This document shows positions 5,575-24,383 of a stretch of DNA of 24,501 nt, one piece after another. The notes below the pieces were generated by a model. The model was not told where the DNA came from. It made no database searches and worked only from the letters and a program-made list of their open reading frames with translations. The stretch's first letter is position 1. Every line of letters begins with the position of its first letter. The stretch is taken from positions 1 through 24,501 of the forward strand of contig MU633770.1 of assembly GCA_026770595.1 (NCBI GenBank), given 5' to 3'. The stretch is from Ochromonadaceae sp. CCMP2298 (lineage: Eukaryota > Sar > Synurophyceae > Ochromonadales > Ochromonadaceae). Made by a program: the position numbers and the translations under genes.

Positions 5575-8500
5575 ATGTCGCTCTCTACCCGGCACCGATG
5601 GTGTATGGACAAGGTGCTCGAGGCGTTTTCGCCAGAGTTGACCACGGAGATGGTGAACCAGTTTATGCGACAGGACGCGAATCTGCAGAGGTTCAATGCA
5701 TTCTTTAAAGGCGATGGCACTGGCCGGCTGTTCGTATTTTTCCAGCCGGAGATGAATGAAGACGAGGTGTGTTTCCCTTACATTGCACTGTGTTTGTTTG
5801 TCGCTGTGGCGGGTACTTGCATCTGTCGCTGCGCATCGCACCCACTGCCTGAATGCATCCGCAGTGATGCCACCCAATCCTATGATCCCTCTAACCCCGC
5901 GCTTTTTATCTCTCTGCTTGTAGGGTCGGGCCCCGGAGAACGCCCCGAAGCTGCTCTCTCTCTCGGACGGCACCACCTTCCTGATGATGCACAAGTGCTG
6001 CTACTTCATCCGAAACGTGGCCAACGGACTGCCCCTGGACCTCACCAAGTGCGGCGAGGCGGATCTGCTCTTCGGAGAGTTCGGCAGCTCCGCCCTGGGC
6101 ACGATCGAGGCCATTTTGAGCCAGTCCTACCGCCCCATGCTGGACGAGTACGACAACTGGGGCAAGGTGGACGACGAGCAGAAGAACGACTTCATCAGCG
6201 AGATCGGCTCCTTCATCACCAACCTCAACGAGGCGCTCAACAGCTTCGCCAGCGGCCTAGATCTGCGCTCGCCTGACCCCAAGATCATCCGCGCGGTGGA
6301 GGTGAAGGCGCACCGCACAGCCCTGCCCACAGAGGCCGTGGACCACTTCGAGTCCCTGCTGAACGAGTGGTGCAACCAGATAGAGCGCTACCTCAACCAG
6401 CCCTCAGAGGGCAGCTCCGAGAGCGACGATATCGGCCCCAGGGGCGAGTTGGAGTACTGGCGCGGGCGTATGCAGAAGCTGACAAGCATCACTGAGCAGC
6501 TCAAGCGTCCCGACTGCAAGCAGGTGATCTCGGTGCTGTCTGCTCTGACCAAGGCCACCACCGACCCGGGCAAGCAGAACATCGTGAACCTGCTCCGGAG
6601 GTGGAAGCAGATCGACGTGAACATCACCGAGTCTGCTAACGAGGCCAAGGACAACGTCAAGTACCTGTACACCCTGGAGCGCTTCATCGACCCCCTCTAC
6701 ACGGGCAACGCCGAGTCCATCACGGACACCCTGCCCGCCCTGATGAACTCCATCAAGATGATCCACACCATCGCCAGATACTACAACACGCCAGAGCGCA
6801 TGACCTCTCTGTTCGCCAAGATCACGGAGCAGATGATCGTGAACTGCAAGATGCATATCACTGGCGACGACGACATGGACGAGTTGTGGGAGTCAGACCC
6901 GCAGGAGCTGGTGCGCAAACTGGAGTCGTGTCTGAAGCTGAACGAGGCGTACCACGAGCAGTACCGCCTGACCAAGAGCAAGCTCGAGCAGTCCCCCAAG
7001 GGCAAGCAGTTCTCGTTCAACGAGATGGCCATCTTCGGGCACTTCGACCTGTTCTGCAGACGCGTGATCAAGTTGATCGACATGTTCTCCACCATCGACC
7101 AGTTCAACAGCCTCTCGAAGAACAAGCTGGAGGGCATGGAGAAGCTGATCGAGCTGTTCCACCAAATAGTCAAGGACTTCCGCCTGAAGAGACACGACCT
7201 GCTGGCCTACCACAAGAACAACTTCGACAGAGACTACGTGGAGTTCAACGTGAAGATCACGGAGCTGGAGGCCAGGCTGCAGCAGTTCATCAACCAGAAC
7301 TTCGAGCACATTACCTCCATCGAGCACTCGCTGCGCCTGCTGAAGAAGTTCCAGACCATCCTGCAGAGAGAGAGCCTCAAGAGCGACCTGGACTCGAAGC
7401 TCAACATCATCTTCCAGAACTACGGGCAGGAGCTGGAGCAAGTGCAGGCACTCTACGAGAAGGAGAAGCACGACCCCCCCATCCCGCGCAACCTGCCCCC
7501 CGTGGCTGGCAACATCACCTGGTCTAGGCACCTGCTGAAGCGCATCGAGGAGCCGATGAAGCAGTTCGAGTCCAACCAGAACGTGCTGGCCGGCAAGGAC
7601 GCCAAGCGCATCATCAAGATGTACAACAAGGTGGCCAAGACACTGGTGGCCTTCGAGTACCTCTGGTACCAGGCCTGGGTGCAGTCCATCGACCAGGCCA
7701 AGGCGGGTCTGCAGGCCACCCTGATCATCAGACACCCCGACGACGGCAAGCTGTACGTGAACTTCGACCAGGAGATCCTGCAGGTACATACACACCCCAC
7801 ACACCAAGACCTTATCCAACCCTATAACTTACCCTAACCCTATAACTTACCCTAACCCACACCCATACTCTAACCCTCACCCTAACCCACACCCACACAG
7901 CTCATCCGCGAGGCCAAGTGCCTCGACCGCATGGGCATCGACGTGCCCGACGGCGCGCGCATCGTGCTCTTCCAGGAGGACAAGTTCAAGAACTACCACA
8001 ACGAACTGCACTGGGCCCTGTCCGAATACGACAAGGTGGTCAGCAAGGTCATCCCCGTCACCGCCATGGTGCTGCGCCCCCACTTCAGAGATATGGAGTA
8101 CAAGTTGCGCCCCGGCATGATCACCCTCACGTGGACCTCGATGAACATCGACGCCTATAAGGCGCACATCCACTCGGGCCTGCGCAAGCTGGAGGAGCTG
8201 GTGGCCAACATCAACGACATGATCGAGAACCGCATCGAGAAGAACCTCAAGATCGTCTCCAAGACGCTGCTGGTGGATCTGCCGGACAGCGAGGCCTTCA
8301 CGGTGGAGGAGTTCGTGAAGATGCAGGAGAAGCACATCTCCCGCCAGTCCACGCTGCTGCAGGGCAAGAACCTGGAGATCGAGTTCGCAGTGCGGGACCT
8401 GGTGAAGACCATCCAGAACTACAAGCTGGACGGGCACGTGGAGAACATCGCGGAGGACGAGGTGAACAAGCTGAAGAAGCACTACAACCACTTCATGTAC

Positions 8501-11500
8501 CAGGCCCTGCTGCACTGCGCCAAGAACAGCATGAACGCGTTGAAGAAGCGCATCGGATCCCGGCCGGCGGTGCAGGTGAGCGGCCAGAAGAAGATCGAGG
8601 ACTCGGTGCTGCCCTTCTTCGAGGTAGACATCCAGCTCGCCGCCCCGCAGGTGGCCCTGGACCCCTCCCTGGATGAGATCCAGGAGTGCATCAACAGATC
8701 CGCGCAGGCCATCCTGCGCTGCTTCAAGACTGTCAAGGACTGGACCGTGGAGGCGGACGGGCCCCGCAACCGCACCTTCTTCGACCGCATCACGAAGGAC
8801 ATCGAGATCGTGCGCGTGGCCCTGCTGCTCACGGGCTGCATCCAGGGCATCCGCCACACGGTGCAGGACTACCTCAACTCCTTCGCGCAGTACAACTGGC
8901 TCTGGCACGACGACAAGGACGCCTCCTACAACGGGTTCATGAAGACCACCCCCTCTCTGGACGATTTCGACCACAAATTGAGCTCGTTCGGAGGCATCGA
9001 GGACGAGATCGGAGTCACCAACGACATCCAGAACATCGGCGCCCTCAGCCTGCGCACGGTGTCCATCAAGTCCCAGCTGAAGGCGGAGTGCAACCGCTGG
9101 AAGATCAAGTTCTCCGACAACCTGCACAGCCAGGCCAAGAGCAAGCTGGAGCAGCTGACGGAGTACATCCGCATGACCAACAGCAAGGTGACCAGAGAGG
9201 TGACGGACCTGGACACGCTGTCCTTCATCATGAAGCTGCTGGTGGACGTGCGCGAGAGAGAGTCCTCGATGGAGATGGAGATCAACCCCATCATGGACAT
9301 GTACCGCATGCTGGAGTCCTACCTGCCCTCTGGCTTCATGGAGAAGGAGGAGATCGACAAGAAGACCGTGCTGCGGGCCAACTGGAAGAAGCTGCTCAAG
9401 CAGTGCGAGATCCGCACCGAGGAGCTGTCCAAGACGCAGACCAAGTTCAAGCGGCAGCTGCTGAAGGACATCAAGGAGTTCAAGAGGGACGTGGAGCAGT
9501 TCAGAGAGGACTTCCTGCGTAACGGGCCCATGGTGGACGGCATCCACCCCAACGACGCGGTGGACCGGCTGACCCGCTTCAAGGAGGAGAACAAGATCCG
9601 CGACCGCAAGATGGAGTCCTACCGCAACGGCGAGGAGCTCTTCGCGCTGCCCCTGACCGACTACCCCGAGCTGGTGCAGACCCAGAAGGAGCTGAAGCTG
9701 GCCGACCAGCTGTTCTCCCTCTACACGGACGTGCTGACCACGCTGACCGGCTGGAAGGACGTGCTGTGGTCGGAGATCGGCGGCCTGATCGGAGAGATGG
9801 GCGAGAAGATCGAGGCCTTCGCTGGCCGCTGCAAGAAGCTGCCCGCCCGTCTGCGCGAGTACAGCGCCTACAAGACGCTGAAGACGCAGATCGAGGACTT
9901 CCAGGTGGTGCTGCCTCTGCTGCAGGAGTTCACCAAGGAGTCTATCCGGGACAGGCACTGGGAGGAGGTGATGGAGATAACGGGCGCCCAATTCGACTTC
10001 GCCTCTCCCGAGTTCTCTCTGCAGTCTCTGCTTGACATCGACCTGGTGGCGAAGAAGGACGAGGTGGAGGAGGTAACGGACGGGGCGGACAAGCAGCTCA
10101 AGATCGAGCGCACCCTGGAGGAGATCGAGGAGCGATGGACCACCGCTAGGTTCCAGTTCCGCGAGTGGAAGGGGCGCTCCATCCAGATCCTGCAGGGCAC
10201 GGTGGGCAACATGGAGGAGCTGGAGGAGGCGCAGATGAACCTGCAGGCCATGCTCACCATGAGACACGTGGGACCCTTCCGAGAGCGCGCGCAGGAGCTG
10301 CTGCAGCTGCTGAGTGAGACCAGTGACACGCTGGAGCGCTGGCTGAAGGTGCAGATGATGTGGTGCTCGCTGGAGTCCGTGTTCACCGGGGGAGACATCG
10401 CCAAGCAGATGCCTATGGAGGCCAAGAAGTTCGCGAAGATCGACAAGGAGTGGGCCAAGATCATGGCCAAGGCGTACGACACGCAGATCGTCACCGAGGC
10501 CTCTGCCAACGAGATCCTTAGAGCCGCCCTGCCCGTGATGTACACGGAGCTGGAGAAGTGCCAGAAGAGTCTGGAGGGGTATCTGGAGCAGAAGAGAAAC
10601 AAGTTCCCCAGGTTCTACTTCGTCTCCAACCCCGGGCTGCTGATCATTCTCTCGCAGGGCTCCGACCCTCTGTCGATGAACGAGCACTACGAGAAGGCCT
10701 TCGACGCGATCGCCTACGTGGACCACAACAAGAAGGACAAGACCATCATCGAGCGCATCCACGGAGACGGAGGCGCGGGCCACGAGGTGATCCCCTTCTC
10801 CGTGCCGGTCAAGGCCGTGGGCAACATCGAGGACTGGCTGTGCGAGCTGCTGCACAAGATGCAGCTGACCATGAAGGATCTCACGCGCAACTCCGCAGGC
10901 GACCTCAACGCACTGGTCAGCGACCTGGGACAGCTGCGCAGCTTCGTGGACAACAACATCGCGCAGTTCGCTCTGCTGGGCATCCAGATGCTGTGGACCT
11001 CTGACATGCAGGTGGCTCTGGAGCAGATCAAGACCAAGAAGAATTCCATGAAGGACTGCGGGGCCAGGCAGTTCGACATCCTCAGAATCATGTCCAGCTG
11101 GTGCCTGCAGGACCTGGGCTCCTCCGTGAACCGCCGCAAGATCGAGACGTTGGTGACCATCCACGTGCACCAGAAGGACGTGTCCACGGAGCTCACCACT
11201 CTGGCGCGCAACAAGAAGATCTCGGACCCCAACGACTTCGAGTGGCTCAAGCAGGCGCGCTTCTACTGGAGGGCCTCTGGCTCGGACGACTGCTCGCCCG
11301 ACGGCGCCTGCGTGATCAGCATCACGGACGTGGACTTCTACTTCCAGTACGAGTACCTGGGGGCCAAGGAGCGCCTGGTAGTTACACCCCTGACCGACAG
11401 ATGCTACATCACGCTCGGCCAGGCATTGGGTATGTTCTTCGGCGGCGCGCCTGCGGGCCCTGCTGGTACCGGCAAGACAGAGACGGTGAAGGACCTGGGA

Positions 11501-14500
11501 CGGTCCCTGGGCATCTACGTGGTGGTTACGAACTGCACGGACCAGCAGTCGTACCTGGATTGCGCCAAGATCTTCAAGGGCCTGTGCATGGGCGGCCTGT
11601 GGGGCTGCTTCGACGAGTTCAACCGCATCCGACTGCCCGTGCTGTCCGTGGTGGCACAGCAGGTGCTCTCCATCCTCAACGCCAAGAAGTCCGGCGTCAC
11701 GCAGTTCCAGTTCCCAGGGGACCCCCAGAACGTGGCCCTGATTCCCTGCTGCGGCTTCTTCATCACCATGAACCCCGGGTACGCGGGTCGCCAGGAGCTG
11801 CCCGAGAACCTCAAGGCGCTCTTCCGCGGAGTGGCGATGATGGTTCCTGACTTCCAGATGATCATCAAGGTGAAGCTGTGCAGCGTGGGCTACGAGCAGT
11901 TCGAGATGCTCTCGCAGAAATTCTTCGTGCTCTACAACACCTCCAAGGAGCAGCTATCGGCGCAGAAGCACTACGACTGGGGCCTGCGCAACATCCTCGC
12001 AGTGCTGCGTACCGCGGGCGCCACGAAGCGCATGAACCTGACTGCCTCCGAGTCCTTCCTGCTCTACCGCACGCTGAGGGAGATGAACCTGTCTAAGATG
12101 GTGGCGCAGGACGTGCCCCTCTTCCTGTCCCTGCTGGCCGACCTGTTCCCCAACGTGTCCTCGCCCGCCAAGGCCGACTACCCCGACCTAGAGGCCGCTC
12201 TGAAGAAGGCCGTGGACGGCTCGAAGCTCGTCTACCACGGCACCTGGGTGTCGAAGGTGCTGCAGCTATACGACACCACGCTGGTGCGCCACGGGATCAT
12301 GCTTGTGGGCCCCAGCGGTGGCGGCAAGACGCAGATATTCAAGAACCTGCGCGCCGCCCTGGACGGCACCACTGGCACTGTGCACAAGGATGTGCGGCTG
12401 AACCCCAAGGCCATCCGCGCGCAGGAGATGTACGGAGAGATGGACCCGCTCAGCGGAGAGTGGACCACGGGCGTGTTCGCAGCCATGTGGGCCAAGTACA
12501 ACAACCGCTCCAACGCCTACAACACGTGGATCATCTGCGACGGGCCCGTGGACGCCATCTGGATCGAGGACCTGAACACTGTGCTGGACGACAACCAGAT
12601 CCTGACCCTGGCCAACGGGGACCGCATCCCCATGACGCCCAACGTGAAGATCATGTTCGAGGTGGAGACCCTGGTCAACGCCTCCCCCGCCACCGTCAGC
12701 CGCGCAGGCATCATCTACGTGTCCGAGACCGACCTGGACTGGTCCCCCTACGTGGAGGGCTGGATCCTCAAGCAGTCTTCCGGCCTGCAGGACCTGCTGC
12801 GCACCCTGTTCAGCAAGTTCATGGGCGCCTCCAACCCCGTAGACCCCGGTCACTGCATCGACTGGATGAACCGCAACGTCTCCATCGTGATGTCCTGCAG
12901 CCGAGTGGGCCTGGCCGCAGGTCTGTGCGATCTGTTCAAGGGCCTGACCGAGGGCAAGGGCTCTATCGACATATCGGTCAACACCGCGCAGCGCGTGGAG
13001 AAGATCCTGCTCTACTGCCTCTGCTGGTCTGTGGGGGGCCTGCTGGAGCAGGAGATGCGCGTGAAGTTCGACGCCTACCTGCGCAGTATCGACACGAACA
13101 AGATGATGCCCAAGTGCGGGCCCGACGAGACCATCTACGAGTATTTCGTGTCCTCGGAGACAGGCGACTGGCAGGTGTGGAAGCCCCCTGTGTGGCACTA
13201 CCCCAAGCAGGAGAAGCTGGACTTCTCGAACCTGCTGGTGCCCACCATGGACTCAACCAGGGCCATCTACATATGCAGACACCTGCACAAGCAGCGCAAG
13301 GCCATCTGCATGGTGGGCGGGGAGGGCACGGCCAAGACCTCCACTGCGCTGATGTTCTTCCACGAGCTGGACCCCAACGAGATGCTGGTCAAGAGAGTCA
13401 ACTTCTCCTCAGCCACCTCTCCCTTCATGTGTCAGTCCGCCATCGAGGTGGAGTTGGAGAAGCGCGGCGGGCGTAACTTCGGCCCCCCGGGGGGCAAGGG
13501 CATGACAATATTCATGGACGATCTGAGTATGCCCGAAGTCAACACCTGGGGGGACCAGCCCACGTTGGAGATCGTGCGCCTCATCGTGGAGTTCGGCGGC
13601 TTCTGCTTCCTGGACAAGGACAAGCGCGGAGACTTCAAGGTACTTAACATACATATGTATATATATTTACATGCATGCATACATACACATACATACACTC
13701 ACAGACTAACACACACACACACATACATACACTCACACCCTAACACACACACACCCTAACGCACACACACAGGTCTGCGAGGACCTGCAGTACATGGCGG
13801 CCATGCAGCACCCCGGCGGCGGCAAGAACGACATCCCCAACCGCCTGAAGCGTAACTTCTTCATCTTCAACATGGTCCTGCCCTCCATCACCTCCATCAA
13901 CGACATATACGGACAGATGCTCGCGGGCCGCTTCCCGGCAGCCACGATTCCGGCCGACACGATGGCCGTGGTGTCAAAGCTGACCACCGCGACGATCGCT
14001 CTGTGGCGCACGATGAAGGACAAGATGCTCCCCACGCCTGCCAAGTTCCACTACATCTTCAACCTCAGAGAGCTGTCTCGCGTCTTCCAGGGGATCATGC
14101 TGACCCCCTCGGAGACCGTCAAGACCGGGGGCTTCCGGTGCGAGCAGAAGCAGGCCGCCTTCGGCGGGGGCGGGCTGACCCTGCTGCGTGTGTGGAAGCA
14201 CGAGTGCGAGAGGGTTTTCTCGGACAAGCTCACGAACCTCAAGGACAAAGCTATCTACAAGTCATACATGGAGGCTCAGATCATGGAAAGCTTTGGGGAG
14301 GAGCTGACTGCCAAGACGCAGGATCCCTTCTACATGGTGAACTTCCTGCGGCCCGACGTATACGACGCAGAGGGCGTGCAGGTCGGGGACGCACCCAAGA
14401 TGTACGAGCCGGGTGGGTCCTTGGAGGACATTCGGCCCATCGTGGTGGAGTTCCTGAACAAGCTCAACACGGAGTTCCCTGGAAAGAAGATGGAGTTGGT

Positions 14501-17500
14501 GCTGTTCAACGACGCACTCGAGCACCTGCTGAGGGTCAACCGCCTCATGGAGATGCCCCGCGGCTCGGGCCTGCTGGTGGGCGTGGGGGGGTCTGGAAAG
14601 CAGTCCCTGACGCGCCTGTCCAGTTACATGTCCCGGTCCCTGCAGTTCCAGATCACGCTGACCAAGCAGTACAACAAGAACACCTTCATGGAGGACCTGC
14701 AGACGCTGTACAAGTCCGCAGGCCACCTGTGCAAGCCCACCACCTTCCTCTTCACCGAGTCCGAGATCAAGGACGAGGTGTTCCTGGAGTACATCAACTC
14801 GGTGCTGCTCACGGGAGAGGTGCCTGGCCTCTTCGCGAAGGACGAGTACCTGGCGATCACTGCCGACCTGCGCAACCTGTTCCTGAAGGAGCGAATAGGC
14901 ATGGAGGACACGCAGGACAACCTGAAGCAGTTCTTCATCGACAAGGTGCGCGACAACCTGCACCTCATGATATGCATGTCCCCCATGAACCCCAAGTTCC
15001 CCATACGCGCACGCAAGTTCCCGGGTATCATCGCGTGCCCCACGATCGACTGGTTCCTGCCCTGGCCTGCGGACGCCCTGGTGGCTCTGTCCAAGGCCTT
15101 TATCCAGAACTTCTACGTGGAGTGCACGCCCGAGGTGAAGGAGGGGCTGATGACGCACATGGGCATGGTGCACAGCATGGTGACGGAGGTGTGCGACGAG
15201 TACTTCGTGAAGATGCGCCGGAGGGTCTTCCAGACGCCCAAGTCCTACCTGTCCTTCATCCAGAACTTCACGTCTATGTACAAGATGAAGCTGGAGGAGG
15301 TGAACCAGAAGGAGGGGCGGGTGAATCTGGGGCTGCAGAAGCTCATCCAGGGGGCGCAGGACGTGGAGGACATGAAGAAGGTGCTGGCGGAGGAGCAGAT
15401 CAAGCTAGAGGTGGCGACGCTGGAGACGAATAAGATGCTCGCCAGTCTGGAGATATCCTCCGCAGAGGCCAAGAGGGAGTCAGACAAGGTGGGCACTATC
15501 AAGAACAAGTGCATGGCGGATGCCACACGCATCGGCGCGGAGAAGTCCACCTGCATGGCGGATCTCGCCAAGGCGCAGCCCTTCGTGGACGAGGCCGAGA
15601 CGGCTATCCGCTCCATCAAGCCTGCAGACATCGGAGAGGTAAAGAAGTTCGCCAACCCTGCCATCATCATCCAGATGGTCTTCGACGGCATCCTGCTGCT
15701 CTTCAAGCTGCCCCTGAACGCGCCCAAGTACGCCAAGCTGGTGGTGGCCAAGCAGGACGTGAACTTCATAGAGCCCTCCTTCAGGCCGCACGGCGTGACT
15801 CTGATGAACAAGGCCGACTTCCTGGGGCAGGTGGTGGACTTCGGACAGAACGGCAAGGACCTGATCAACGAGGAGACCATCGAGTTCATGAGCTGCTACA
15901 TCGACCTGGAGGGCTTCACCTCGGCCGTGGCCAAGAACGCCTCCAAGGCGGCGGAGGGCCTGTGCACCTGGGTAAGGGCGATGAAGTTCTACCACGAGGC
16001 TTCCAAGATCGTCAAGCCCAAGTTGGAGGCCCTGTCTATCGCAGAGGCGAATCTCGAGGCAGCTAACAAGGCCCTTGCGGCAGCCGAGCAGCGCCTGGCA
16101 GCCTGCCAAGCGCGCCTGGACGAGCTGCAGGCCATGTTCGACACGCAGATGGCGGAGAAGCGCCGCATCGAGGACGGGGCCATGGCCCTGCAGCGGAAGA
16201 TGACCATGGCCTCTCAGCTGATCGGGGGCCTGGCCGGCGAGCGCGTGAGGTGGACAGAAGACTCGAACAACTTCTCAGACCTAAAGCGCCGCCTTGTGGG
16301 AGACTGTGCTGCCGCCTGTGCCTTTGTGTGCTACACGGGACCCTTTAACCAGGAGTTCCGGCGGTACCTGGTGGAGGAGAAGTGCGTGAACGACTGCCAG
16401 CTCAGAGGCGTGCCCATCACAGGTACGCACCCTTACCCTTCTTACCTATTGACCTATTATAGGGCGTATATACCTACACTAGTGCACTAAATAAGCTATT
16501 ATATGTCCTCTTATTACCTCCCAACCCTAACCCTCCCCCTCCTCCACCACCTCCCCTCTCCCCTCTCCTCCCAGTGGGCCTGGACATCATCTCGTTCATG
16601 GTGGACATCGGCACCATCGGGGACTGGAACATGCAGGGACTGCCCGCAGACCCCCTCTCCACACAGAACGGCATCCTCGTCACCCGGTCCAGTCGCTTCC
16701 CCCTGATGATCGACCCCCAGGGCCAGGCGCTGAGCTGGATCAAGAACAAGGAGTCCCAGAACGTGCCTGCCTTCGGCCAGACCACTCTGGGGGACCCCAA
16801 GTTGAAGGACAAGTTAGAGCTGTGCATGGCGGACGGGCTGGCGCTGATCATCACCGGCGTGGAGGAGGAGATCGACCCCATGTTCGACCCCGTGCTGGAG
16901 AAGCAGCTGATCACCAAGGGCAAGCGCAAGTTCGTGAACGTGTCTGACAAGCTGATGGACTACGACGAGAAGTTCATGATGTACTTCATCACCCGCCTGC
17001 CCAACCCCAACCTGTCTCCCGAGCTGCAGGCCAAGACCAATGTGGTGGACTTCACGGTGACGCAGAAGGGCCTCGAGGAGCAGCTGCTGGGCAAGGTGAT
17101 CGGCAAGGAGCAGAAGGCGCTGGAGGAGCAGCTGAACGGCGTGCTGGAGGAGGTGAACCTCAACACCAAGTCCCTCATGGCTCTGGACGCCTCTCTGCTG
17201 GAGCGCCTTACCTCCAACACGGTACGTACTATACTATATACTACTACAACATGCTATATATTCTATACTACTACTACATACTCTATACTACGTAATACTA
17301 CTATATACTCTATACACCATACATACACGATACATGTACTACTGTATACACCATACATATACTTCTATATACACAAATACTAACCCTAACCATCCTTTTA
17401 AACTATCCATGTAGGGCAATCTTCTGGAGGACGAGGAGCTCATCGGAGTGCTGGCCAACACAAAGGCCAAGGCCGCTGAGGTCAACCAGAAGCTATCCGC

Positions 17501-20105
17501 CGCTGCCGACACCAAGGCCTCCATCGCAGAGAAGCGTGAGCAGTTCCGGCCCGTGGCCACCCGCGGCTCCGTGTTGTACTTCTCGATCGTGGAGATGTCC
17601 GGTGTGAACTGCATGTACCAGACCTCTCTGGCGCAGTTCCTGGTGCTGTTCATGGAGTCCATGGACCGCTCCGAGAAGGCCTCGCTGGCCTCCAAGCGCG
17701 TGCAGAACATCATCGAGACGCAGACCTACCTCACCTACCGCTACATCAACCGCGGTCTGTACGAGGCGGACAAGCTGACCTTCGTGGTGCTGGTGACGAT
17801 GAAGATCCTCATCACCGCCAACAACCTGCGCACATCAGACCTGACGCTGTTCCTCAGGGGAGGCGCGGCCCTGGACATCGACTCGGTGCGCCGCAAGCCC
17901 TTCAACTGGATCTCGAACGAGGCGTGGCTGAACGTGGTGGAGCTGTCCCAGAGCCAGAAGTTCTTCGCCAACCTGCCCACGGACATGTCCGCCAATGAGG
18001 CCATGTGGAGGAGATGGTACGAGGACAACGAGCCGGAGCAGATGAACATCCCCGACTACGAGCAGAAGATCACCGAGGTGCAGGTCATCGGCCCCTTCTA
18101 CCGCCTGCTGCTGGTGCGCTCGCTGCGCATGGACCGCTGCATGCTCATGTGCAAGTGGTTCGTGCGCAACGTGGAGGAGATGGGGCCCACCTTCGTGGAG
18201 CCCGTAACGGACACAACGGACTCCATCTACGAGAGCATGACCTGCGACGTGCCGGTGATCTTCCTGCTCTCCACGGGCGCAGACCCCACAGAGTCCATTG
18301 AGGGCCTAGCACGCAAGCGCAAACTGCCCTCCCCCGCTGTCATCAGCATGGGCGAGGGGCAGGAGCCAGTGGCCATCAAGGCGATGCAAGCCAGCGCCGC
18401 CAACGGCACATGGGTGCTTCTGCAGAACTGCGAGTTGGGTCTGGAGCTGATGGTGCAGATGGAGGAGTTCCTGGAGAACCTCAAGGAGGGACAGGACCCC
18501 AACTTCAGGCTCTTCATCACGGCGCTGCCCGACCCGGCCTTCCCCCTGGGCCTGCTGCAGATGTGCACCAAGGTGACCAACGAGCCCCCTGCCGGCCTGA
18601 AGGCGGGTATTCTGCGCAGCTACACTGTGATCGTGGACCAGGACCGCCTGGAGAGGGTGGACCAGGGGGCGGCCCAGTGGAGGCAGCTGCTCTTCGCGCT
18701 GTGCTTCATGCACTCCACCGTGCAGGAGAGGCGCAAGTTCGGCTCGCTGGGCTGGGGCATTCCCTACGAGTACAACAACGGCGACCTCACCGCCTGCATC
18801 CTCTTCCTGGAGAAGCACCTGTACAACGGGTCCATCTCCTGGCCCACCTTCCAGTACATGGTGTGCGAGGCGCAGTACGGCGGGAAGATCACGGACAACA
18901 TGGATCGGCGCCTGTTCAAGACCTACACCACCGGCTGGCTGAACTCCTCCACCTGCCAGGAGGGCTTCTCCTTCAACCCGAAGGTGCCCATCTTCAAGAT
19001 CCAGGACAACTTCGTGTACAAGGTGGAGAACTACGACCAGATAGGCCAGTACCACAACTACATCAAGTCCTTCCCGGAGATCGACTCGCCCGAGATATTC
19101 GGCCTGCACCCCAATGCGGACCTGACCTTCCGCGTGAAGGAGGTGACTGCGCTGTTCGACACGCTGGGCGAGACGCAGCCCAAGGGCGGCGGGGGCTCAG
19201 GGGAGGGCATGAGTCGGGAGGACACTGTGTCTGAGAAGGCCACCGACATCATCTCTCGCATGCCGGACCAGTACGTGGAGGAGGAGTACAAGGTGCGCAT
19301 CAACAAGCTGGGCGGCCTCACGGTGCCCCTCAACATCTTCCTCTACCAGGAGATCCAACGCCTGCAGAACGTGCTCTCCAAGGTCACCTTCATGCTCAAG
19401 CAGCTCAAGCTGGCCATCAACGGGGAGGTGGTGATGACGGAGGACCTGCAGAAGTGCCTGGACGCCATATACGAGGCAAAGGTGCCTACCATGTGGCTGG
19501 TGACCGTGGCGGGCGACGAGTTCTCCTGGATCCTGCCCACGCTGGGTCTGTGGTTCTCCAGTCTGCTGATGAGGGACGAGCAAGACCGCAGCTGGCTGAT
19601 GGGGGGGCGCCCCAACACCTACTGGCTCACAGGCTTCTTCAACCCCCAAGGAATGCTGACGGCTATGAAGCAGGAGGTGTGCCGCAAGCACCAGAAGGAC
19701 GCGTTGAAGTGGGCCCTGGACGACATCGTGTACCACACCGAGGTCACCTCGTACATGAACGTGGAGAGCGTCAAGTCCCCCCCCGCAGAGGGCTGCTACG
19801 TGCACGGCCTCTTCCTGGAGGGAGGCGCGTGGTCCAAGGACCAGAACATGCTGGTGGAGAGCGAGCCCAAGACGCTGTTCGTGCCCCTACCCGTGCTCAT
19901 GGTCTCGGCCAACCTCAAGACCGAGGAGGCGCGCAGCCGCAGGGAGGCCTACGGCGCGCAGGGTCCCTACGACTGCCCCTGCTACAAATACCGCTCCCGC
20001 ACGGACCGCTACTACATCTTCCAGGTCACGCTGCGCTGCACGCCCGAGAAGAATCCGGCCTTCTGGACGCTCAGAGGGGTGGGCATGCTCTGCAACACGG
20101 ACTAG
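5575..20105 (+). CDS. axonemal outer-arm dynein heavy chain, gamma (DNAH5/DNAH8) class, six exons
   Basis: Exons 5575-5766, 5924-7783, 7901-13639, 13773-16422, 16575-17221 and 17415-20105 join in frame to 4592 residues, normal for this family. Order: N-terminal tail, linker with FYFVSNPGLLIILSQ (about 1587), AAA1 P-loop GPAGTGKT (1870-1877) and Walker B in WGCFDEFNRI (1918-1927), AAA2 GPSGGGKT (2154-2161), AAA3 GGEGTAKT (2490-2497), AAA4 GVGGSGKQS (2867-2875), coiled-coil stalk with microtubule-binding tip (about 3100-3450, tip 3211-3327), degenerate AAA5, AAA6 with VLLQNCEL (about 4030), and a C-terminal domain with WLTGFFNPQG and the terminal LRGVGMLC. GGAPAGPAGTGKTETVKD, LPVLSVVAQQ and GPPGGKGMTIFMDD resemble the gamma/DNAH5-DNAH8 branch rather than the beta branch. 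It is the ATP-driven motor that slides doublet microtubules. No broken motif was found. Confidence 0.96.
7784..7900 (+). other. dynein intron 2 with telomere-like CCCTAA units
   Basis: Donor GTACAT at 7784, acceptor ACAG ending at 7900, phase 0. Between about 7820 and 7895 it consists largely of CCCTAAC, CCCTATAACTTA and CCCACAC units. The CCCTAA string is the complement of the TTAGGG telomere repeat. Dynein intron 1 (5767-5923) has no such repeat. Confidence 0.8.
13640..13772 (+). repeat. dynein intron 3, made almost wholly of CA/CATA microsatellite
   Basis: Donor GTACTT at 13640 and acceptor ACACAG ending at 13772, phase 0, splitting AAA3 between GDFK and VCEDLQ. Nearly the whole intron is ACAT, ACAC and ACACCCTAAC units. 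The reading frame happens to stay open into it, so a naive ORF runs past the exon end. Confidence 0.85.
16423..16574 (+). other. dynein intron 4
   Basis: Donor GTACGC at 16423 and acceptor CCAG ending at 16574; the only dynein intron in phase 1, giving GVPIT-V-GLDIIS. It includes CCCAACCCTAACCCTCCCC near 16520 and a C/T-rich run before the acceptor. Confidence 0.85.
17222..17414 (+). repeat. dynein intron 5, TA/CTA-rich simple sequence
   Basis: Donor GTACGT at 17222 and acceptor TGTAG ending at 17414, phase 0. It is full of ATACTACTA, CTATATAC and ACCATACATA units, in sharp contrast to the GC-rich exons, and has one CTAACCCTAACC near 17379. Confidence 0.85.
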
Positions 20106-23305: not shown

Positions 23306-23413
23306 CTTATGTACGCAACTAACACAATGAGGGGAAAAGGTATTGATTTGTTCTTACTGTTCTTACTGTACAGTTGAATACCTAGGCTCATGTTGACACA
23401 CTCAGGTCGAGGA

Positions 23414-23485
23414 GACAGTCGATTGCATCAGGCGACCAGCAGTTATTAATAACTTATGCCGGCAGCTGTCATCCCATCGAAGATC
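23414..23485 (-). promoter_or_regulatory. SECIS element (form-2-like), distal copy
   Basis: Read on the minus strand: lower stem TCGAT/ATCGA with weaker pairing beneath, internal loop, 5' core ATGAC (ATGA at 23472-23469) and 3' core TGAT (23430-23427). These give the UGAN/NGAU non-Watson-Crick quartet. The upper helix includes CCGGC paired with GCTGG (one G-U). Then comes a 5' bulge ATA, partly AA (23455-23454), 13 bases after the ATGA, and a mini-helix AGTTA/TAACT. This matches form-2 eukaryotic SECIS elements, which recruit SBP2 and direct selenocysteine insertion at UGA. Its position in the 3' UTR of a peroxidase with an in-frame TGA fits. Folding was done by eye. Confidence 0.78.
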
Positions 23486-23547
23486 CCTCCACCACAAAAT
23501 GGACAAGAAAAATTATCATGTCGAAACGCCTGTCCTGAGTGCATTTC

Positions 23548-23713: not shown

Positions 23714-24383
23714 CTATGCGCTGTCTACCTCCAGCAGAGCCTTGATGTGTGACTCGAAGGAGAGGGGGCTCTCCTGGGGGCCGAACCTCTTCACTGGCAC
23801 GCCCTCGGCATCGCACAGGAACTTGGTGAAGTTCCACTTCAGAGTCTGCCCCAGGACGCCGCCGCTCAAGTCCTGCTTCAGGAATTCGTACAGAGGGGCC
23901 GTCTTAGCGCCGTTCTCGCACTCCAGCTTGCCCAGAATGGGGAAGGTTGCCCCCTTGCCCTTGGCGAACTCCAGGACCTCCGCGTTGGCGCCTGGCTCCT
24001 GAGATCCGAAGTTGTTGCAGGGGAACGCAAGAATCTCCAGGCCCGTTGTTCTAAGAGTCAAGAATGTAATTATAACAAGAGTCAGAAACGGAGGTGCTGG
24101 TGGTAGGTTATAGACACGCCCCTGGGGGTGAGAAGGCGTATTGGCATATGCACCGTTTGTCTTACCCATATTTGGAATACAGAATCTGCAGCTCCGCGTA
24201 GTTCTGCTTCGTCAAACCTCACTTAGATGCGACGTTCACCACTAGATACGCCTTCTTGCCCTTGTACGTGGCGAGGCTGAGCGCCTGATTATCAATGGTC
24301 TCGACGCTAAAGTCGAAGATGCTTTTTGCGGCAGCTCCGCTCGTGCCGAGGACTTTCGCTTTCGTTGAACTAGAGGCTCCCAT
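23714..24383 (-). CDS. selenocysteine-containing glutathione peroxidase, two exons
   Basis: On the minus strand, exons 24383-24166 and 24050-23714 join in phase 2 to 184 residues, with TGA at codon 55 read as selenocysteine and TAG as stop. Family motifs run through it: NVASK-U-GLTKQNY (50-61), LAFPCNNFGSQEPG (80-93) and LKWNFTKF (143-150). The catalytic tetrad is Sec55, Gln90, Trp145 and Asn146. The enzyme reduces hydroperoxides with thiols. The usual NQF is NNF. The resolving cysteine of plant thioredoxin-type peroxidases (FACxxF) is absent, so a monomeric GPX4-like mechanism is likely. The N-terminus MGASSST fits an N-myristoylation site and there is no obvious signal peptide. The intron (24165-24051) has donor GTAAGA and acceptor TTAG. 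A premature stop is the alternative, but position and 3' UTR argue against it. Confidence 0.93.
24219..24221 (-). other. in-frame TGA read as selenocysteine
   Basis: Codon 55 of the peroxidase. It falls at the catalytic cysteine/selenocysteine position of the family, and the frame continues with conserved residues on both sides. TGA also ends the PP1 gene, so it is not a general sense codon. Confidence 0.92.

Follow-up and report, generated by a model that had tools for sequence, protein, structure and literature searches.

A GPX4-like gene of Ochromonadaceae sp. CCMP2298 with TGA at its catalytic codon and two SECIS-like elements in its 3' flank, a probable selenoprotein gene

The stretch of DNA analysed here (the window, 24,501 nt, the whole of contig MU633770.1 of Ochromonadaceae sp. 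CCMP2298) carries a two-exon glutathione peroxidase (GPX) gene with TGA as its codon 55. The product is very probably a GPX4-like selenoprotein, in which UGA at codon 55 would be read as selenocysteine (Sec) by means of a SECIS element in the 3' UTR, most likely the distal, form II member of a pair of SECIS-like stem-loops (Table 1). A selenoprotein had been proposed in an initial annotation made from the nucleotide letters, and this reading is now supported by the position of the TGA at the Sec column of the family, by genes for tRNA-Sec and SepSecS in the same assembly, and by two further genes with TGA at their Sec columns.

Table 1. Features of the GPX gene and its 3' flank (positions are those of the window)
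Feature	Position	Strand	Description
GPX exon 1	24383-24166	minus	218 nt, ATG at 24383; matches PF00255, one TGA inside the match
In-frame TGA, codon 55, proposed selenocysteine	24221-24219	minus	falls on the catalytic Cys/Sec column in solved GPX structures
GPX intron	24165-24051	minus	115 nt, GT...AG (GTAAGA...TCTTAG); absent from P0003
GPX exon 2	24050-23714	minus	TAG stop at 23716-23714; PF00255 match without stops
Proximal SECIS-like stem-loop	23548..23605	minus	10-bp helix I, AUGA/UGAU core 23592-23561, helix II, 3-nt loop, no apical AA
Distal SECIS (predicted)	23409..23490	minus	AUGA/UGAU core 23472-23427, UAA bulge, mini-helix GUUA/UAAC (form II)

Gene structure and family membership

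Joined across the intron, the two exons specify 184 residues followed by TAG, and the TGA at codon 55 is the sole internal stop. It stands between NVASK and GLTKQNY, with 129 intact codons downstream. The PF00255 match over exon 1 takes in one extra stop, a TAA at 24164-24162, but this lies inside the intron. The initial annotation had described the first exon without naming its strand (it is the minus strand), the TGA at codon 55 with the same flanking residues, and a product of 184 residues that would have all four catalytic residues if TGA were Sec; the exon is real, and each of these particulars was recovered. A short ORF of 32 codons (24486-24388, minus strand) lies upstream, its TGA end 4 nt before the GPX ATG.

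With Cys written at position 55, the Pfam family GSHPx (PF00255) is matched over its entire profile (1-108 of 108) at 108.5 bits, against a cut-off of 27. The same query matches 43 distinct solved sequences at E <= 0.001, the best being 2p5q, which bears the name glutathione peroxidase 5 (4.5e-43), and 7l8m (GPX4; 4.8e-43). The E-value of the latter compares with 2.1e-20 for GPX1 (2f8a), 5.5e-20 for GPX2 (2he3) and 1.8e-19 for GPX3 (2r37), and by this comparison the gene product is closer to GPX4 than to GPX1, GPX2 or GPX3, that is, GPX4-like (PHGPx). Alignment to GPX4-like proteins, proposed in the initial annotation as a check, places codon 55 on the catalytic column. The tetrad consists of position 55 (Cys/Sec), Gln90, Trp145 and Asn146, and all four columns agree with 7l8m, which has Cys at the Sec place; three of the four agree with 2p5q, where Gln90 is opposite Glu. 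The likeness to GPX4 (7l8m, 2obi) includes the tetrad columns, and the alignment with 7l8m is nearly collinear, with three single-residue gaps. In the proposed enzyme, Sec55 would act together with Gln90, Trp145 and Asn146 to reduce peroxides.

The protein differs from GPX4 in having its own N-terminus, which begins MGASSS (24383-24366, minus strand). We take this to resemble an N-myristoylation signal, and the protein is predicted to be possibly N-myristoylated.

Gene calling and database relatives

Ordinary gene callers had been expected to miss the gene, and this proved to be so. Among ORFs of at least 150 aa, the one lying over it is 151 aa long, begins near the very end of exon 1, at 24169, and reads through the intron. 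A public protein, P0003, which has 2 member sequences and lies on 4 JGI contigs of up to 1006 nt, is 100% identical to GPX residues 57-184, does not contain the intron sequence, and begins two residues past the TGA. Its make-up suggests a cDNA product from a transcript that contains the TGA.

In a protein database search, 7517 of 7710 candidates matched. Among the best 120 of these 7517 homologues the residue at the catalytic site is Cys in 74 and Trp in 20, while 26 have no motif recognised by the pattern, counts to be read with the reservation that a Cys-bearing query favours Cys relatives. Eight of the 26 motif-less sequences begin two residues beyond the site and one begins five beyond it; most of the others start further downstream, and a few are longer proteins in which the pattern did not recognise the site. 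The Trp found in relatives would, we infer, stand for a TGA translated with a code in which it means Trp. These relatives give a concrete picture of the harm that gene calling does to selenoproteins, with 20 of the best 120 relatives showing Trp at the active-site column and 9 starting 2-5 residues past it. Starts similar to MGASSS occur in 6 of the 20 Trp-site relatives, in 4 of the 74 with Cys and in none of the 26 motif-less ones (again among the best 120 of 7517).

Other TGA-containing genes and the genetic code

The assembly (11.25 Mb in 724 contigs, possibly incomplete) was searched exon by exon. A second GPX gene, on contig C147 and with more introns, has TGA at the same catalytic column (the column being read by eye), and a SelM gene on contig C134 has the motif CTGU, in which U is encoded by TGA; it matches PF08806 at 63.5 bits with Cys at the Sec codon. 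These two and the GPX gene of the window are the three genes for which the family searches made of the assembly reported a TGA inside the match. In each of them the TGA stands at the Sec column, as read by eye, which chance would explain poorly. All three end in TAG. In the C147 paralogue, a hydrophobic N-terminal stretch seems to take the place of the MGASSS-type start. The SelT/SelW/SelH family (PF10262) and MsrA (PF01625) had no match in the assembly, and PF13911 had a single weak one (27.1 bits against a cut-off of 27), without TGA.

These genes bear on the alternative that the TGA is a sequencing or assembly error for TGC or TGT and the protein therefore a Cys-GPX; a sequencing error shown by transcripts had been named in the initial annotation as a finding that would refute its reading. 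The TGA is known here from the assembled sequence, as such an error would allow, but the same codon occupies the same column in a divergent GPX paralogue, SelM also carries TGA at its Sec column, the public protein P0003 begins right after the site, and a SECIS-like element lies in the 3' flank. An error is accordingly disfavoured, and is considered extremely improbable.

A second alternative is that TGA has been reassigned in the nuclear code as a sense codon for Trp or Cys, the Trp at the site in 20 of the best 120 homologues then being literal. This is the least credible of the explanations considered, with a probability close to nil. In seven open frames of the window Trp is encoded by 88 TGG and no TGA; frames chosen for being open lack TGA by construction, but were TGA a sense codon, there would be very little chance of a frame staying open over 1,942 codons. 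Among 11 gene ends inspected, three are TGA, five TAG and three TAA, and the genes terminated by TGA include those for eIF2-gamma and a protein kinase. Because TGA ends these two genes, and Trp is TGG, TGA is a stop codon whose meaning depends on context, being redefined in certain genes. A peroxidase with Trp in its catalytic position should be inactive, which also speaks against a literal reading, as does the presence of tRNA-Sec and SepSecS. Reassignment was rejected on the use of TGG alone for Trp and on the TGA ends of the eIF2-gamma and kinase genes.

Selenocysteine machinery

A tRNA-Sec gene was found at C179:11419-11505 (locus L004, 1501-1587), scoring 56 bits against the Rfam gathering threshold of 47. 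The family model at a loose threshold matches 14 of 14 control genomes and exceeds the cut-off in five, so only a score above the cut-off is informative. The anticodon is UCA within the loop CUUCAAA, and the acceptor stem has three mismatches (A.G, G.A and U.U), the first two being adjacent. ARAGORN, run with the bacterial code, called no tRNA on this locus. SepSecS is matched at 271.8 bits by its best exon, and the model TIGR03531 at 366.3 bits, where the cut-off is 224.85. The gene is seen on two contigs (C231 and C321; loci L013 and L014), identical at 2854 of 2854 aligned bases with one short gap, and these are probably redundant. In the mechanism proposed, Ser-tRNA-Sec would be converted to Sec-tRNA-Sec by a pathway ending in SepSecS.

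The initial annotation had pointed to the Sec machinery as a test of its reading; this was borne out by tRNA-Sec and SepSecS. The exon-by-exon search of this possibly incomplete assembly gave no match for SPS (SelD), a result of little weight. EFSec likewise had no match, the EFSec model having matched none of the control genomes and the two protein queries used for the Sec machinery being without a positive control; a human EEFSEC query matched eIF2-gamma and EF1A only. No match to PSTK was found with a model that also covers KTI12, which was likewise not matched. To our knowledge KTI12 is nearly universal in eukaryotes. The negatives for SPS, EFSec and PSTK carry little weight because the search was made exon by exon in a possibly incomplete assembly and missed KTI12 too.

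SECIS-like elements in the 3' flank

A 409-nt interval was taken as the 3' flank, bounded by the GPX stop and by the end (23305) of a plus-strand ORF that matches no Pfam family; this interval is presumed to be the UTR. It contains two SECIS-like stem-loops. The distal element reads AUGAC, 12 nt, AA, the mini-helix GUUA/UAAC, a return strand and UGAU, with helices I and II. A 101-nt cut has a folding energy of -36.1 kcal/mol (z -2.69), a value reached by 3 of 200 shuffles; an 81-nt cut, from which the outer helix is missing, takes up a different fold (z -0.76). For the proximal element the folding energy of a 91-nt cut is -37.7 kcal/mol (z -2.99), reached by 1 of 200 shuffles, and the z-score is -1.50 for a 51-nt cut. 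The distal element fits the UGAN/KGAW core as given in the accessible part of PMC7409322, and the form II SECIS with mini-helix as described in that of PMC2874816.

Aligned to each other, the two elements are identical at 46 of 57 bases and share the same core in the same register, with a single 14-nt gap in the proximal copy that corresponds to the missing apical block with AA and mini-helix. Of the ten helix I pairs, ten form in the proximal and eight in the distal element, and two of the ten positions show double changes that retain pairing. This alignment gives the two stem-loops the look of a tandem duplication. Of the pair, the distal, form II element would most likely be the one that directs Sec insertion at the codon 55 UGA, and the proximal element would most likely be a degraded or precursor duplicate.

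How far such elements stand out was gauged with scanners of differing stringency. The final pattern (ATGA, AA after 9-13 nt, KGAW, helix II and helix I) finds four sites in 125,210 strand-nt (the window and eight loci, both strands), and the distal element is the best of them. In a random Markov background (400 x 24,501 nt) there were 42 sites, giving 0.0018 expected per 409-nt flank, a figure that is indicative only, the scanner having been adjusted after inspection of the distal element, which an earlier version missed. With a looser scanner the distal element scores 34 and is first in the window, one site of 35 occurring in locus L015, and 40 x 24,501 random nt gave 51 sites of at least 30 and seven of at least 35. 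A scanner that ignores the apical motif places both flank elements among the 10 of 159 window hits (two strands) at -26.5 or better, and because that many hits reach this value it is not selective alone.

Rfam found no SECIS family in the window or in the three 3' flanks, the GPX flank having been scanned even at E up to 10. Scans of the 3' flanks of the second GPX and SelM genes also gave no convincing canonical or CC-type SECIS. The C147 flank has a strong hairpin (locus L001, about 2774-2845) with an AUGAC centre and without AA (z -0.93 to -2.26 depending on the cut), an unproven candidate SECIS, and for the SelM flank folding is no better than that of shuffled sequences (z 0.77, 0.66, 0.10 and -0.08). 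Sec-GPX genes without a detectable SECIS are on record, 11 such cases in ciliates being given in the available sections of PMC7409322.

The Rfam result, together with an in-frame TGA of the kind typical of a broken gene, would suit a recently disabled pseudogene in which the TGA is an ordinary nonsense mutation. Such a gene would not be expected, however, to keep 129 intact codons beyond the stop, to have an identical intron-free product in JGI data, or to carry SECIS-like folds in its 3' flank, nor would it account for Sec-column TGA in two further genes or for tRNA-Sec and SepSecS in the assembly. A pseudogene is very unlikely, and was rejected because the frame stays intact beyond the TGA, further genes carry TGA at the Sec column and Sec machinery is present.

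Relation to known selenoprotein genes

Across 36 algal genomes, Sec-GPX is one of the four selenoproteins with the widest distribution, according to the portion of PMC7539508 available. The present gene resembles the algal Sec-GPX described there in having UGA at the catalytic column and, as predicted here, SECIS-dependent decoding, and differs in having two SECIS-like elements, one of which lacks the apical AA block. It is, then, a probable Sec-GPX of a sort well known in algae, and nothing about it is unusual apart from the AA-less duplicate of the SECIS.

Genes with a single Sec and two SECIS elements have been described: human Sep15 and Ciona SelW1 are named in the accessible text of PMC2874816, both elements of the latter being form II, and the upstream SECIS of Sep15 is reported as nonfunctional (PMC2874816, PMC3705309, in the parts available). 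Like these two and SelP (PMC2874816), the present gene has two SECIS or SECIS-like elements in one 3' UTR, but it differs in that the proximal copy is an apparent duplicate without the apical AA block, and in being a protist GPX. Among the papers listed and the passages available, none described a GPX gene with two SECIS elements, though such a report may exist.

The proximal element resembles a rat PHGPx SECIS from which the AAR had been deleted. That deletion does not abolish L30 binding whereas core mutations do, and both AAR and core motifs are called essential for Sec incorporation (PMC3706390, from the sections available). A more speculative role for the proximal element, and one judged improbable, is that of a working AA-less SECIS, which would bind SBP2- or L30-type kink-turn proteins through its core, load or hold them for the distal SECIS, and so tune Sec insertion while not driving it alone. 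It would be the outcome of a tandem duplication in which the 14-nt block was gained or lost, and the AA-less candidate of C147 could be a related short form. The AA-less duplicate offers a natural case in which protein binding might be separated from Sec insertion.

Other features of the source genome

The window also carries, on the plus strand at 5984-20105, a dynein heavy chain gene in several open frames that matches the axonemal 2/5/8 coiled-coil model, and judging from this match the organism is flagellated. EF1A points weakly to a stramenopile: among the 120 relatives listed, the closest named one of ordinary length is that of Ectocarpus fasciculatus (89%), many others, without names, being nearer.
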